Positions 18,274-25,188 of a stretch of 33,582 bases of DNA are shown here, piece after piece. The stretch is from contig PERF01000015.1 in the NCBI GenBank assembly GCA_002928495.1, positions 1 to 33,582 of the forward strand. The letters run 5' to 3'. This stretch comes from Methylobacter sp. Lineage in GTDB: Bacteria > Pseudomonadota > Gammaproteobacteria > Methylococcales > Methylomonadaceae. The notes beneath the pieces are model-generated. The model worked only from the letters and a program-made list of their open reading frames with translations. It was not told the DNA's origin and searched no databases. Position 1 is the stretch's first letter; each line of letters begins with the position of its first letter. Made by a program: the position numbers and the translations under genes.

Positions 18274-18894
18274 ATGAATCCCATTTACTTCCAGGCAAAA
18301 TTTTTAAGCAGCGCTGCCGATCTTGGCGGCGCACCCTCTGACGAAGGCTTGGAGATAGCTTTTGCAGGGCGTTCCAATGCCGGTAAATCCAGCGCCATTA
18401 ACACTATCACCCGACAAAAAAATCTGGCCAGGACCAGTAAAACTCCCGGGCGCACGCAATTATTGAATTTTTTTTCCGTGAGCGGGCCATTGCGCTTAGT
18501 GGATCTGCCGGGCTACGGTTATGCGCAAGTACCGGCGGAGGTCAAAAAGCAATGGCATGCCATGATGGAGCGTTATTTAACCGGGCGTGAATCGCTATGC
18601 GGCATTGTATTGGTGATGGATGCACGCCGCCCGTTGACCGATTTCGATTGGCAGATGCTGGAATGGGGGGGGCACAATGGCCTGCCGATGCACATTTTGC
18701 TGACTAAAGCCGATAAACTGCCGGATAGTATTGCCGCAAAAACGCTTGCTTCGGTGCAAGAGGCGTTGGATCACAGCGGATTTCCCTATAGCTTGCAATT
18801 GTTTTCGGCGTTAAAGAAAAAAGGCGTGGAAGAGGCCCATCAGGCATTAGACCTTTTGTTTGCGGCTGTCGGGGCTGGCGGTGATAACCCGTAG
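18274..18894 (+). CDS. engB: Ribosome biogenesis GTP-binding protein EngB/YihA/YsxC
   Basis: EIAFAGRSNAGKSSAINTI (G1), TPGRTQLLNFF, RLVDLPGYGYAQVP (G3), LLTKADKL (G4). ATG at 18274 (or 18259) is likelier than the ORF-track start at 18178. Confidence 0.95.
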   Translation: MNPIYFQAKFLSSAADLGGAPSDEGLEIAFAGRSNAGKSSAINTITRQKNLARTSKTPGRTQLLNFFSVSGPLRLVDLPGYGYAQVPAEVKKQWHAMMERYLTGRESLCGIVLVMDARRPLTDFDWQMLEWGGHNGLPMHILLTKADKLPDSIAAKTLASVQEALDHSGFPYSLQLFSALKKKGVEEAHQALDLLFAAVGAGGDNP

Positions 18895-18910: not shown

Positions 18911-18944
18911 ATAAAAAAGCCCCAAAAGCGTTTGCCTTTGGGGC
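18911..18944 (-). terminator. Rho-independent terminator read on the minus strand
   Basis: Minus-strand reading GCCCCAAA-GGCAAACGCT-TTTGGGGC-TTTTTTAT: 8-bp stem (18919-18926 / 18937-18944) followed by a U-tract. No U-tract on the plus-strand side, so it does not look like the engB terminator. Confidence 0.8.
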
Positions 18945-19014
18945 CGAGGGGATCAGCAAATGACAAAAAAGGGGGGAAATTGTCAAGCTGATTGTGATGC
19001 TTCCTGGCATACAC
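18911..19014 (-). ncRNA. Putative small RNA of about 105 nt in the Spot 42/ErsA syntenic position (engB-polA interval)
   Basis: Terminator at 18911-18944; stem-loop 18952-18992 (ATCAGC-TTGACAA-TTTCCCCCCTTTT-TTGTCA-TTT-GCTGAT); candidate -10 TATCTT (19021-19026) and -35 TTGAAC (19043-19048), 16-bp spacer, with an A/T-tract upstream. No minus-strand ORF explains it. Confidence 0.58.
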
Positions 19015-19020
19015 GAGTTT

Positions 19021-19048
19021 AAGATAAATGCACGAATGGAAAGTTCAA
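19021..19048 (-). promoter_or_regulatory. Candidate sigma70-type promoter for the minus-strand sRNA
   Basis: TTGAAC-N16-TATCTT (4/6 each) preceded by A/T-rich UP-like sequence AAAAATTTTTTATCACAAAAAATTTAAT. Confidence 0.4.
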
Positions 19049-19184: not shown

Positions 19185-19212
19185 CCAGCTAAACTTAAAT
19201 TAAGGCGTGCAC

Positions 19213-19803
19213 ATGCGTTCGATTATTAACATACTCATTCTAACCGCGATATTGGCGCTATCAGGTTGCGGTTATAACACCATTCAGGCTCAGGATGAGC
19301 AGATTAACGCCAGTTGGGCGGAAGTGCTTAACCAATATCAGCGGCGTGCCGATTTGGTCCCCAATCTGGTGAATACGGTAAAAGGTTATGCCGGCCATGA
19401 AAAAGAGGTTCTGGAAACAGTTACCGCTTCCCGTGCCAGAGCCGGCAGTATCCAGGCCACACCGGAATTACTGAATGACGAGCAGGCCTTTGCTAAATTT
19501 CAGGCCGCCCAAGGCGAGTTGTCATCGGCTTTGTCAAGATTGATGGCGGTTTCGGAAAACTATCCGCAGCTTAAGGCGGATGCCGGCTTCCGGGATTTGC
19601 AAGCGCAACTGGAAGGCACGGAAAACCGCATTACGGTGGCCAGAAACCGTTACATTGCCGCTGTTAAAGACTACAACATCACCGTGCGTTCATTTCCCAG
19701 CAACTTAACGGCCAAGCTATTCGATTACACGCCCAAACCTTCGTTTACGGTTGAAAACGAAAAAGCCATAGCGGCGCCGCCTACCGTGGATTTCGGCAAA
19801 TAA
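19213..19803 (+). CDS. lemA: LemA family lipoprotein
   Basis: LILTAILALSGCGYNTIQAQDEQINASWAEVLNQYQRRADLVPNLVNTVKGYAGHEKEVLETVTASRARA is the typical LemA signature. ATG 19213 preferred over GTG 19207. Confidence 0.96.
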   Translation: MRSIINILILTAILALSGCGYNTIQAQDEQINASWAEVLNQYQRRADLVPNLVNTVKGYAGHEKEVLETVTASRARAGSIQATPELLNDEQAFAKFQAAQGELSSALSRLMAVSENYPQLKADAGFRDLQAQLEGTENRITVARNRYIAAVKDYNITVRSFPSNLTAKLFDYTPKPSFTVENEKAIAAPPTVDFGK

Positions 19804-19804
19804 C

Positions 19805-20679
19805 ATGCAGTTTGCCAAGGCGACAGTCGCCGCGTTTTATTACTGATTTGTTCAGGCTGGCTGTTGGCCGCTTTAAGCGAGACGCCCGTGCCGGCATTGG
19901 CGGCACGGGTTACCGACTTGGCAGGTGTTTTTACGGCCGAACAGAAATCCGCACTGGAAGCCCGGCTGGCGGCTTTGGAAAGCCAAAAAGGCGTTCAGAT
20001 TGCTGTGCTGACGGTACTTACCACTCAACCGGAAGCCATTGAACAGTATTCCATTAATGTCGCCGAACAATGGAAACTGGGCCGTAAAAGCGTGGATGAC
20101 GGAATTTTACTATTGCTTGCCAAAGACGACCGCAAAACCCGCATCGAAGTTGGCTATGGTTTGGAAGGTGTGATTCCCGACGCCGTGGCCAAGCGCATTA
20201 TTGAAGAAATCATGATTCCGTTTTTCCGTAACGGGGATTACTACGGCGGCATCAATGCCGGGGTGGAAAAGCTGGTCGGTTTGGTGCAAGGGGAGTCCTT
20301 ACCGCCGCCGGAAGCCAAGTCCGCTGATGTTTTCCTGTCAGGGCCTTATGTTTTCCTGGTTTTTGTTATTGCGCTGTTTTCAGGCAGCTTAATGCGCGCT
20401 ATTTTTGGGCCGGTATTGGGCGGGCTGCTCAACGGCGGCATTTGCGGCGCGTTGGTGTGGTTTTTGGGCGGCGGCTTGGTTTTGGCTTTGATAGCAGGGG
20501 TGATAATCATGCTGTTTTCGCTAGGTAACAATGGTTCATCCGGCCCCGGCGGCGGCTATTACGGCGGCGGAGATTTAAGCGGAAGTCGCTCTTCCTGGGG
20601 TGGATTTTCCAGCGGAGACAATGGCTTTTCAGGTGGCGGCGGAGATTTTGGCGGCGGTGGCGCCTCGGGGAGCTGGTAA
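19805..20679 (+). CDS. TPM domain-containing (YgcG-like) membrane protein with Gly-rich tail; possible frameshift in the signal-peptide region
   Basis: ARVTDLAGVFTAEQKSALEARLAALESQKGVQIAVLTVLTTQPEAIEQYSINVAEQWKLGRKSVDDGILLLLAKDDRKTRIEVGYGLEGVIPD; C-terminal GGGGDFGGGGASGSW. Only TTG (19864) is an in-frame start; ATG 19805 is one frame off. Confidence 0.9.
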
Positions 20680-21179
20680 TGCGGATTTTACGGTTTTTAC
20701 GGCATAGTTGTACTTTCCCCTGGCAGGTGCGCCGGGTGTTTCCCAAACGTAGTCTTAGCGTTATTGAAACCCTGGTGCGCGAAAGCGAATGCTCGCATTT
20801 GGCTGAGCTCAAGTTTGTCGTGGAAGCGGCATTGAGCCCTGGCGAATTAATTCGCGGCATGACAGCCAGACAGCGCGCCTTGGAAGTGTTTTCGCAGCTG
20901 AGATTGTGGGATACCGAACACAATAGCGGGGTTTTGATTTATTTGCTGCTGGCGGACCGCCGGGTTGAAATCATCGCCGACCGAGGTATTAATGCTAAGA
21001 CCGGCTCCGATGTGTGGGAGTCGATTTGCCGGGCTATGGAAGCACAATTCCGAACCGGAAATTTTGAGCAAGGCGTATTGTCCGCCATCACGCAGATTAC
21101 CGTATTGTTGCAGCGACATTTTCCTGCGCAAGGCCAGCTAAACGCCAATGAGATAGGCGATAGTCCGGTTTTGCTTTAA
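20679..21179 (+). CDS. TPM domain-containing protein (second copy, no Gly-rich tail)
   Basis: HNSGVLIYLLLADRRVEIIADRGINAKTGSDVWESICRAMEAQFRTGNFEQGVLSAI; adjacent to the first TPM gene. Confidence 0.88.
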   Translation: MRILRFLRHSCTFPWQVRRVFPKRSLSVIETLVRESECSHLAELKFVVEAALSPGELIRGMTARQRALEVFSQLRLWDTEHNSGVLIYLLLADRRVEIIADRGINAKTGSDVWESICRAMEAQFRTGNFEQGVLSAITQITVLLQRHFPAQGQLNANEIGDSPVLL

Positions 21180-21224
21180 GTTGTTTTTGTGGTAACTATG
21201 CATTATGGGGTCAGAAATAGTCCG

Positions 21225-21330
21225 AATAGCAACCGCCCTTTTTTAAAAGGGGAGCTAGGTGGATTTTTTCAAAAAACTTCCCCTCGCTCCTCGTTTTCGA
21301 AGAGGGGAACCGCTAGCGCTGAGCGCTGGC
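21225..21330. repeat. Intergenic palindromic repeat-like element
   Basis: cgcccttttttaaaaggggagctaggtggattttttcaaaaaacttcccctcgctcctcgttttcgaagagggg: nested inverted repeats in a form resembling dispersed intergenic repeats of many bacterial genomes. Confidence 0.45.
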
Positions 21331-21388
21331 AGAACGGCGCTTTTGTTGGTCATTCTTGAGCGTGGTAAGGCATTAAGCGGGAGTAAAT

Positions 21389-22285
21389 ATGAGGATTTTG
21401 ATCACCGGCGGTACCGGGTTAATCGGGCGGCAGCTTTGCAAAGCGTTGTTGCATGAAGGGCATGAGTTGACGGTGTTGAGCCGAAATCCTCTATCCGTGC
21501 CTATCAAATGCGGGCAAGCGGTTAAGGCCATGCAAAGTTTAAGCGAATGGACGCCGGATCAGGTATTTGACGCCGTGATCAATCTTGCCGGTGAGCCGAT
21601 TATTGACTTGCCCTGGACTGAAGCCCGCAAGAAACGCCTTTGGGATAGCCGGGTTAGCCTGACTGCCGAGCTGGTTAATAGAATCGAGAGAGCGGATCAA
21701 AAACCCAAAGTGCTGCTCAGTGGTTCAGCGATCGGCTATTACGGCGATTGCGGCAGCACCCTAGTAGATGAAACCGCCCCGCCTGCATCGGATTTCGGCG
21801 CGGCGTTATGTGCGGCCTGGGAAAAAGCCGGTTTGAAAGCGGCGGAAAGCAATGTCAGGGTTTGTTTCCTTCGCACCGGTTTGGTTTTAGATGCCGCAGG
21901 CGGTTTGTTGGGCAAAATGCTGTTGCCTTTCAAACTGGGTTTGGGCGCCAGCCTGGGCAGTGGCCACCAGTGGATGAGCTGGATTCATATCGATGATTAT
22001 GTCGCCATCGTGCTGCGTTTGTTAACAGAGCCGGGGGCAATCGGTATTTTCAATATGACGGCTCCCAAGCCGGTCACCAATAAAGAATTCACCGACACGC
22101 TGGCAAAAACACTATGCCGCCCGGCTTTCTTGTTTGCGCCATCCCTCGCACTGAAGCTGGGATTGGGCGAGCGGGCTTATCTCTTATTAGGCGGCCAACG
22201 GGTCATTCCGGCCAAAGCCCAAGCCTTGGGCTATGAATTTATCTATCCGGAACTTGATGGTGCGTTAAAGTCGTTATTGGGCTGA
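21389..22285 (+). CDS. TIGR01777 family oxidoreductase (SDR39U1/YfcH-like epimerase)
   Basis: MRILITGGTGLIGRQLCKALLHEGHELTVLSRNP; LSGSAIGYYGDCG; SWIHIDDYVAIVLRLL. Confidence 0.94.
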   Translation: MRILITGGTGLIGRQLCKALLHEGHELTVLSRNPLSVPIKCGQAVKAMQSLSEWTPDQVFDAVINLAGEPIIDLPWTEARKKRLWDSRVSLTAELVNRIERADQKPKVLLSGSAIGYYGDCGSTLVDETAPPASDFGAALCAAWEKAGLKAAESNVRVCFLRTGLVLDAAGGLLGKMLLPFKLGLGASLGSGHQWMSWIHIDDYVAIVLRLLTEPGAIGIFNMTAPKPVTNKEFTDTLAKTLCRPAFLFAPSLALKLGLGERAYLLLGGQRVIPAKAQALGYEFIYPELDGALKSLLG

Positions 22286-22287
22286 GT

Positions 22288-25017
22288 TTAATGCGCTTCA
22301 TCCCAATTAATGCCAACTCCGGTTTCCACCACCAACGGAACGGATAACTGGGCTGCCGAACTCATCAGGTCTTGGATTTTAGCCTGGTGCTGGTCTAACA
22401 TGGCTTCCGGCACTTCAAACACCAGTTCGTCGTGCACTTGCATAATCATTAGGGTGCCGCCGGATTCGCGTTGCAGCCATTGGTCGGTGGCAATCATGGC
22501 GCGTTTGATAATATCGGCCGCGGTGCCTTGCATGGGCGCGTTGATGGCGGTGCGTTCGGCATACTGGCGCATGGCGGCGTTGCGCGACTGAATGTCCGGC
22601 AAGTACAAGCGCCGGCCGAACAACGTTTCCACATAGCCTTGCTCGCGTGCTTGCGCCCGGATGTTGTCCATGTAACGTTTTACGCCGGGATAGCGGGTGA
22701 AGTACAGATCGATATATGACTGCGCTTGCTGGCGCGACAAGCCCAATTGCTGCGCCAAGCCGAACGACGACATGCCGTAAATCAGGCCGAAATTGATGGC
22801 TTTGGCGGAGCGTCGCAAATCGGCGGTGACCAATTCGGGCTCCACGCCGAATACTTCGGCCGCGGTGGCGCGGTGGATGTCCTCGCCTTGGCTGAATGCT
22901 TTCAGCAGCCCTTCATCGCCGGATAAATGCGCCATGATGCGCAGTTCGATTTGTGAATAGTCGGCGGCAACGATTTTACAGCCTTCCCGGGCGATAAACG
23001 CTTGGCGGATTTTCCTGCCCTCGGCGCTGCGGATGGGTATGTTCTGCAGGTTGGGATCGGACGACGACAAGCGTCCGGTCGCCGCCACGGCCTGATGGTA
23101 AGAGGTATGGATGCGGCCGGTTTTCTCGTTAACTTGCTGCGGCAGTTTGTCGACGTAAGTCGATTTGAGTTTACTAAGTCCACGGTGTTCCAGAATCAGC
23201 CGGGGCAGCGGGTAATCCATAGCCAGTTCCTGCAACACCGATTCTTCGGTGGAAGGCTGGCCTTTGGGGGTTTTTTTCAGCACCGGCAGCTTCAGTTGAT
23301 CGTACAAAATTTCCTGAATCTGTTTAGGAGAACCCAGGTTAAAGGTCTTGCCGGCAGTTTGGTGAGCTTCTTGCTCCAAGGCGCAGATTTGCCCCGATAA
23401 TTCCAGGCTTTGCTGCGCCAACATGGCGGTGTCTATGAGTACGCCGTTTTGCTCCATACGGGCCAAAACCGTGATCAAGGGGATTTCCAGTTCGCGGTAG
23501 AGTGTGTCCAGGGGCGGTATCTGTTGCAGTTTGGGATACAGCACTCGATGCAGGCGCAAGGTAATGTCGGCATCCTCGGCGGCATACGGGGCGGCTTGTT
23601 CCACCGGTACTTCGGCAAAGCCGATTTGTTTGGCGCCTTTGCCGGCGACTTCTTCGTAGTGGATGGTGACGGTATCCAGGTATTTTTTCGCCAGATCGTC
23701 CATGTTGTGTTTAGTAGCAGTGCTGTCCAGGACATAGGATTCCAGCATGGTGTCATGGACAATGCCGTTAAGCCGGATGCCGTGGTTGGTCAGCACGTGC
23801 GCGTCGTATTTGAGGTTTTGGCCGACTTTGGCGTGGTTTGCATCTTCCAGCAGCGGGCGGAGTTTTTCCAGGGTTTGGGTGCGGTCAAGCTGTTCCGGGG
23901 CGCCGGGGTAGTCGTGCGCCAGCGGCACATAGGCGGCTTTGCCGGGCTCGACGGCAAACGAAACGCCGACAATTTGGGCTTTGCTGTAATCAAGATCGGT
24001 GGTTTCGGTATCGAAAGCGAACAACTCAGCGGTTTTAAGTTTTTCCAGCCAGTCGTCAAGCCGGGCTGCGGAGAATATGCTTTCGTATTCGACGGCTAAG
24101 CCGCTGAAATCCGGGCTGTCGGCCTGAGGCGCGGGAGCGGTCGGCTCGCCGGTTTCCGGCGTATTCAGTACTTTGAGCCAGGTTGAAAAACCCAGGTCTG
24201 TCAACAGGTGTTTCAGTTCGGCCTTGTCCATAGGCTGCTGCTTGAGGTCCTCCATGCTGTAGGGTAGCTCCAGGTCGCAGCGGATGGTGGTCAGCTGTTT
24301 GGATAACGGCAGCTGGCCAAGGCTGGCGCGCAGATTATCGCCGATTTTGCCTTTGATTGCGTCGGCGTGAGCAATCAGATTGTCCAGCGTCTGGTAGTCT
24401 TGCAGCCATTTGGCGGCGGTTTTGGGGCCAACTTTGGGTACGCCGGGGATGTTGTCCACGGTGTCTCCGATCAGCGCCAGATAATCAATAATCTGGTCGG
24501 GCCTGACGCCGAATTTTTCGATGACACCTTGGATATCCAGCCGGGTATTGGTCATGGTGTTTTCCAGGATGATATGTTCGTTGACCAATTGCGCCATGTC
24601 TTTATCGCCAGTGGAAATAATAACTTGGTAACCTTGTTCCACGGCATGCAAGGCCAACACGCCCAGGACATCGTCAGCTTCAATATTGGCCTCGATGATC
24701 AAAGGCAAGCCCATGGCGCGGATAACATTGTGCAAAGGTTCGATTTGTACGCGCAAATCGTCGGGCATGGGCGGACGGTGGGCTTTGTACTGGTCGTATA
24801 AATCGTTGCGGAAAGTTTTGCCGGGCGCGTCAAAAACCACGGTGATGAAATCGCTGTGATACTCGGCGATCAGCTTGCGCAGCATACTGGTAACGCCGTG
24901 GATGGCATTGGTTGGCAAGCCTTGCGGGCCGGTCAACGGGGGGATGGCGTGGTAGGCGCGAAATAAAAACGACGAACCGTCGACCAGAATCAGACGTTTT
25001 GGAGTGGGTTGCAGCAT
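22288..25017 (-). CDS. polA: DNA polymerase I (5'-3' exo, 3'-5' exo and polymerase domains)
   Basis: LILVDGSSFLFRAYHAIPPLTGPQGLPTNAIHG; FAFDTETTDLDY (DxE exo motif); DYSQIELRIMAHLSGD; RRSAKAINFGLIYGMSSFGLA; QVHDELVFEVPE. Met at 25017 likelier than 25080. Confidence 0.97.
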   Translation of the reverse strand: MLQPTPKRLILVDGSSFLFRAYHAIPPLTGPQGLPTNAIHGVTSMLRKLIAEYHSDFITVVFDAPGKTFRNDLYDQYKAHRPPMPDDLRVQIEPLHNVIRAMGLPLIIEANIEADDVLGVLALHAVEQGYQVIISTGDKDMAQLVNEHIILENTMTNTRLDIQGVIEKFGVRPDQIIDYLALIGDTVDNIPGVPKVGPKTAAKWLQDYQTLDNLIAHADAIKGKIGDNLRASLGQLPLSKQLTTIRCDLELPYSMEDLKQQPMDKAELKHLLTDLGFSTWLKVLNTPETGEPTAPAPQADSPDFSGLAVEYESIFSAARLDDWLEKLKTAELFAFDTETTDLDYSKAQIVGVSFAVEPGKAAYVPLAHDYPGAPEQLDRTQTLEKLRPLLEDANHAKVGQNLKYDAHVLTNHGIRLNGIVHDTMLESYVLDSTATKHNMDDLAKKYLDTVTIHYEEVAGKGAKQIGFAEVPVEQAAPYAAEDADITLRLHRVLYPKLQQIPPLDTLYRELEIPLITVLARMEQNGVLIDTAMLAQQSLELSGQICALEQEAHQTAGKTFNLGSPKQIQEILYDQLKLPVLKKTPKGQPSTEESVLQELAMDYPLPRLILEHRGLSKLKSTYVDKLPQQVNEKTGRIHTSYHQAVAATGRLSSSDPNLQNIPIRSAEGRKIRQAFIAREGCKIVAADYSQIELRIMAHLSGDEGLLKAFSQGEDIHRATAAEVFGVEPELVTADLRRSAKAINFGLIYGMSSFGLAQQLGLSRQQAQSYIDLYFTRYPGVKRYMDNIRAQAREQGYVETLFGRRLYLPDIQSRNAAMRQYAERTAINAPMQGTAADIIKRAMIATDQWLQRESGGTLMIMQVHDELVFEVPEAMLDQHQAKIQDLMSSAAQLSVPLVVETGVGINWDEAH

Positions 25018-25188
25018 GAAAATTAAAGGCAAAACGCAAAATGCTAGAGTAACATTTTTGACTGTTTTGAGCTTGGGCAAATAAATCTAAGAATTGAGAA
25101 AAATTAAATAAAAACTCAATTTATTTACTAGATTTTTATTATAAACTATGCGGTCTTTATGAGTGTTTTATAAGAGCAGGAGATAAAA

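Follow-up and report, generated by a model that had tools for sequence, protein, structure and literature searches.

The minus strand of the gap between engB and lemA, at positions 18911–19047 of the window (the whole stretch of 33,582 nucleotides that was analysed), carries a promoter, followed by a hairpin whose loop exposes six C's (C6) and by an intrinsic terminator. This is a conserved structured RNA gene with a sigmaE-type promoter, an exposed C-rich loop and linkage to polA and engB. With a probability of about three in four, we consider it to encode a sigmaE-driven, trans-acting sRNA of methanotrophs which resembles ErsA and sX13 in locus and architecture, masks ribosome-binding sites with its C-rich loop and is a probable ortholog of ErsA. 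The window is contig 15 of the draft genome of a gammaproteobacterial methanotroph, with pmoB in the same genome as seen by inspection of open reading frames. Gammaproteobacterial methanotrophs thus gain a candidate envelope-stress sRNA, seen by comparison in dozens of genomes and absent from Rfam. In the open-access literature searched, there was no report of such an RNA in these organisms.

The gene is convergent with engB, which encodes the YihA GTPase (18277–18894, plus strand; MMR_HSR1, E=6.9e-19) and is 58–69% identical to the EngB of relatives, those with names including Methylococcales MAGs. The gene for DNA polymerase I, polA (22288–25080, minus strand; DNA_pol_A, E=8e-167), is on the same strand as the sRNA but 3.2 kb upstream. 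The two are separated in the window by plus-strand genes at 19207–22285, namely lemA (starting at 19207), a TPM-domain gene, a further open reading frame and an epimerase gene. The sequence-only reading had placed engB forward and both the sRNA and polA on the minus strand; the strands are right, though polA is not adjacent here. Since other genes intervene between polA and the sRNA, the sRNA gene retains its own promoter and terminator when its neighbours change. Amongst the relatives the arrangement is tighter, with polA on the same strand within 250 nt in 40 of the 44 members that have it in view, and a convergent engB within 200 nt in 34 of the 43 that have engB in view. Neither gene is in view in 12 of 64 members (L067, L069, L072, L075, L078, L082, L084–L087, L089 and L103); either the sRNA gene has moved in these or its neighbours have.

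The −35 element of the promoter, TGAACTT (19041–19047, minus strand), is followed 15 nt later by the −10 element ATCTTA (19020–19025, minus strand). In all 64 relatives [GT][GA]AACTT is found at the same place, in one case ending in A, and the full motif, [GT][GA]AACTT-N14–16-NTC, is present in all 64 at a near-constant distance from the RNA. Its AACT and TC never vary, an A follows three bases after the TC in 61 of 64, and 15 nt is the commonest spacer (51/64). By the known consensus, this motif is of the sigmaE/AlgU type. The same DNA had previously been read, in a shifted register, as a sigma-70 promoter, TTGAAC-N16-TATCTT. This does not hold: the conserved element is TGAACTT-N15-ATCTTA and a sigma-70 scan gave nothing at the sRNA promoter site. 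The genome of the window encodes an ECF sigma factor (algU), RseA/MucA, MucB and a DegP-like protease (mucD) in one cluster, and with this cluster and the promoter motif present, transcription of the sRNA may be sigmaE/AlgU-dependent. The algU/rpoE-mucA-mucB-mucD cluster is located on contig 51 of the window genome (L312:3462–4200), where a candidate sigmaE-type auto-promoter, GAACTA-N15-GTCATT, was seen by eye just upstream of the sigma gene. Over both strands of the whole window the sigmaE-type motif has two matches, one of them the sRNA promoter. The second, GGAACTT-N14-GTC at 22249–22272 on the plus strand, is located at the epimerase gene's 3′ end, pointing to the 3′ end of polA, and is probably due to chance.

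The predicted sRNA (18911–19016, minus strand) is approximately 103–106 nt long with a putative start at 19014 ± 3. In both the minimum free energy and the centroid fold it begins with stem-loop 1 (SL1), GUG.AUGC/GCAUCAC, at 18994–19014 on the minus strand, the loop of which is not C-rich. Stem-loop 2 (SL2), AUCAGC...GCUGAU (18952–18992, minus strand), has an inner UGACAA/UUGUCA stem that is longer than in the relatives and a 13-nt loop, UUUCCCCCCUUUU, containing the C6 run that we propose as the seed (18971–18976, minus strand; unpaired probability 1.0). The intrinsic terminator has a stem of 12 pairs, 7 of them GC, formed by GGCCCCAAAGGC and GCUUUUGGGGCU (18918–18945, minus strand), and in the sequence the stem is followed by the U tract TTTTTTAT (18912–18917, minus strand). 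The sequence-only reading had described the C6 stem-loop, a CCCCUC stretch and the terminator, and all are located where it had put them. The predicted RNA folds with an energy of −40.4 kcal/mol against −22.5 ± 3.1 for shuffled sequences (z = −5.8), none of 200 shuffles being as low. Because there is no T tract after the stem on the plus strand, this is not the terminator of engB. Rather it would serve the sRNA's own transcript, as only the minus strand has the U tract, and upstream on that strand the first gene, polA, is 3.2 kb off behind plus-strand genes. That the RNA has no open reading frame, as had also been stated, is not strictly correct. Two frames run through the terminator, one of 56 codons from an ATG at 19010 and one of 55 codons from a GTG at 19014, but no Shine-Dalgarno sequence was seen before them and on inspection neither start nor length is kept in relatives.

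A direct DNA search of 61 relatives gave no useful match and homology was therefore sought through synteny. When the engB flanks of relatives were read, the same element was found between polA and engB. A covariance model built from six relatives with the window left out (R1) had the window locus as its sole window match, at 20.5 bits. In the family, which spans 29 genera, it matched strongly in about 60 of the 237 genomes. A second model, R2, built from 64 relatives and again without the window, matched only 18912–19019 on the minus strand of the window, over model positions 1–109 and ending 17 nt from engB, with 30.6 bits (E=2.5e-5), a score which genome-wide is inside the background of roughly 30–38 bits seen in unrelated genomes. 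No other match at E≤0.05 was found in the genome of the window. As the background reaches these values, membership of the window sRNA rests jointly on score, place and promoter. The Methylococcales polA/engB sRNA is the family defined by R2, and in the window there is a full-length covariance match beside engB, the promoter motif and an unpaired C-run in SL2. One match (L112), with neither promoter nor synteny, was discarded as a false positive.

The structure of the 64 members covaries strongly. Double changes are found in 25 of the 30 pairs, 91.6% of cells are paired as against 78% in shuffles, and 255 cells have double changes compared with 68 ± 7 in shuffled alignments and 10–47 when the structure is slid. 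By helix, double changes affect all seven pairs of helix 1, five of the eight pairs of helix 2, which is 99% paired, and 10 of the 12 pairs of helix 5, the terminator. The covariance check that the sequence-only reading had proposed thus returns a conserved and covarying structure, and a model blind to the window recovers the locus. The C-rich loop that it had picked out is likewise shared: three to seven C's in a row occur in the middle region of 62 of the 65 members, with a mean unpaired probability of 0.93. In one of the 62 (L093) the run is paired and off the loop, and by inspection the loops of this member and of the three without a run have C/U-rich motifs such as UCUCC.

At the Rfam gathering score there is no match for the window sRNA, in agreement with the earlier description of it as apparently unannotated. 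The models for ErsA (RF01719) and sX13 (RF02232) have no match in the window at E≤10, the ErsA model finds no relative above its cut-off, the sX13 model has no match in 20 relatives, and the Spot_42 model (RF00021), whose gathering score is 80, reaches 12.5 bits in the window. Since those models reject it, we do not file the sRNA under ErsA, sX13 or Spot 42. Sub-threshold matches in the window to NmsRb, NsiR1, SdsR and others are weak and were judged to be driven by the terminator, and a weak RF01719 match elsewhere in the window genome (C54) is the terminator after pmoB. Two further families touch on the locus but not on the window: anti-hemB (RF02837, Burkholderia), with weak matches to the polA-engB RNAs of other Gammaproteobacteria of up to 46.6 bits against a gathering score of 49.5, and alpha-r14 (RF02344, Alphaproteobacteria), with a weak match of 31.6 bits to one family member.

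The closest likeness is to ErsA of Pseudomonas, which is transcribed from the polA-engB interval in a sigma22-dependent manner and represses algC by pairing with its ribosome-binding site with Hfq (PMC6321483, PMC8575079). ErsA (Pseudomon-1) lies directly after polA on the polA strand and has a sigmaE-type promoter, GAACTT-N16-GTC, C-rich loops, an intrinsic terminator and a length of about 110–130 nt, all of which we count as likenesses. In one genome with an ErsA match above cut-off (G471, 121 bits) the gene follows polA and has the promoter GAACTT-N16-GTCATA. The position of ErsA, in the polA-engB interval on the polA strand, is also that of the gene in the relatives, whereas in the window it is beside engB and 3.2 kb from polA. 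The body of the methanotroph RNA, on the other hand, is not alignable by the Rfam model. ErsA has several C-rich loops and a long U-rich linker domain, while the methanotroph sRNA has a single C-rich loop and no linker domain; SL3 of ErsA-like RNAs is absent from it and its terminator loop is not C-rich. The methanotroph sRNA is probably a diverged ortholog of ErsA.

The sX13 RNA of Xanthomonadaceae (RF02232) is similar in another way. In the passages of PMC3771888 on which we draw, it is an RNA of about 115 nt always found after polA, with three hairpin loops of C4–C5, and represses mRNAs with G-rich motifs without Hfq. The methanotroph sRNA has such a loop in SL2 only and does not match sX13 in sequence, and no sigmaE promoter is described in those passages. 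The same passages mention alpha-r7 and Spot 42 as located at polA, and ask whether other bacteria carry sRNAs there; our results bear on this question for a C-loop sRNA, and tie ErsA and sX13, which were described separately, by promoter, locus and architecture.

The alternative is convergence, in which a different sRNA would have arisen behind polA and gained its sigmaE promoter and C-loop independently of ErsA. We regard this as unlikely, though it deserves to be taken seriously: R2 scores ErsA at 15 bits (E=0.65 in 240 kb), which is not significant, and the bodies of the RNAs differ. Against it, locus, strand, promoter and the order SL1–SL2 are common to many gammaproteobacterial families. 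Of 41 polA-engB intervals from other Gammaproteobacteria, 20 have the promoter motif on the strand of polA, as compared with 3 that have it on the other strand and 2.7 for shuffled sequences. Folds of 19 of the slot RNAs, judged by eye, mostly have SL1 beside an SL2 with a CCUCCC-type loop, then a further CCCC hairpin and a terminator; SL1, SL2 and the terminator are retained in the methanotroph RNA, which is without the third hairpin and its C-loop. Across the class, the R2 matches outside the family do not exceed background level. The weak R2 matches all lie within the slot and none outside it, 26 of the 30 being on the strand of polA, though terminators could explain part of this. We tentatively propose that polA-engB is an ancient sRNA locus at which ErsA, sX13 and the methanotroph RNA may derive from one sigmaE-driven anti-Shine-Dalgarno RNA, the promoter and SL1–SL2 core being kept and other hairpins gained or lost, with Spot 42 as a rewired occupant.

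Some further features of the slot were noted. The polA-engB intervals of many gammaproteobacterial families (L161–L247) contain C-loop sRNA-like elements with matches to RF02837, RF02232 and RF01719 below the gathering scores. We suggest that a single kind of RNA is divided among these Rfam families. One gammaproteobacterium has a slot RNA that is apparently inverted, on the engB strand (L165:2276–2382; R2 41.7 bits), and similar inversions were suggested by inspection at L048, L039 and L170.

Returning to the function of the methanotroph sRNA, we infer its transcription, mode of action and targets as follows. RNA polymerase with the envelope-stress sigma factor AlgU/RpoE would start the sRNA at about 19014, and the RNA would end at its own terminator to give about 105 nt. 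SL1 may act as a buffer hairpin abutting SL2, whose open loop exposes a run of four to seven C's. This could pair with G-rich Shine-Dalgarno or enhancer segments of the AGGGGG type in target mRNAs and block ribosome loading, so that envelope stress would lower the translation of a set of proteins. Masking of G-rich ribosome-binding sites by the C-loop is the most likely mode of action, with the promoter type, the loop and the relatives in support. A scan of the window genome for AGGGGG-N3–10-ATG gave no consistent excess over a reversed control (19 and 18 vs 21 and 6), and targets are therefore unsupported. Amongst the candidates, named by inspection, were HU-like, transhydrogenase-like and TssC-like proteins and others, which in the absence of consistent enrichment we do not claim as targets.

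The scan result would also fit an RNA that acts as a sponge or binds protein, titrating Hfq or another C-binding protein, for instance, rather than pairing with mRNAs, as would the exposed C-rich loop with its U-rich flanks. It would seem improbable, however, given that the C-loop relatives ErsA (PMC6321483) and sX13 (PMC3771888) pair with mRNAs.

Spot 42 (Enterobacteria, Vibrionaceae) shares with the methanotroph RNA the slot between polA and engB/yihA and its orientation, spf being in the same slot and orientation in E. coli. As a sigma-70/CRP gene, however, Spot 42 differs in promoter type, and it is not known to have a C-rich anti-Shine-Dalgarno loop. The sequence-only reading had offered the sRNA as a positional counterpart of Spot 42 and ErsA alike. 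For ErsA this stands, the gene of the relatives being directly between polA and engB, but the even-handed comparison with Spot 42 is not supported, promoter type and C-loop architecture pointing to the side of ErsA and sX13. That an unrelated, Spot 42-like CRP/sigma-70 sRNA merely occupies the same slot is very improbable, for all the agreement in position, with a sequence score of 12.5 bits against 80, no sigma-70-like site and a sigmaE-type element that is invariant in 64 relatives.

It is equally hard to credit that the element is just a terminator, or the 3′ end of polA, with an incidental hairpin upstream and no separate RNA gene, even if no single element is stronger than the terminator and the one weak outside match that was inspected was a terminator. 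In the window, plus-strand genes put 3.2 kb between the element and polA, the nearest upstream gene on its strand; in the 12 of 64 members noted above, polA and engB are both out of view; and conservation with covariation extends to the promoter, SL1 and SL2.
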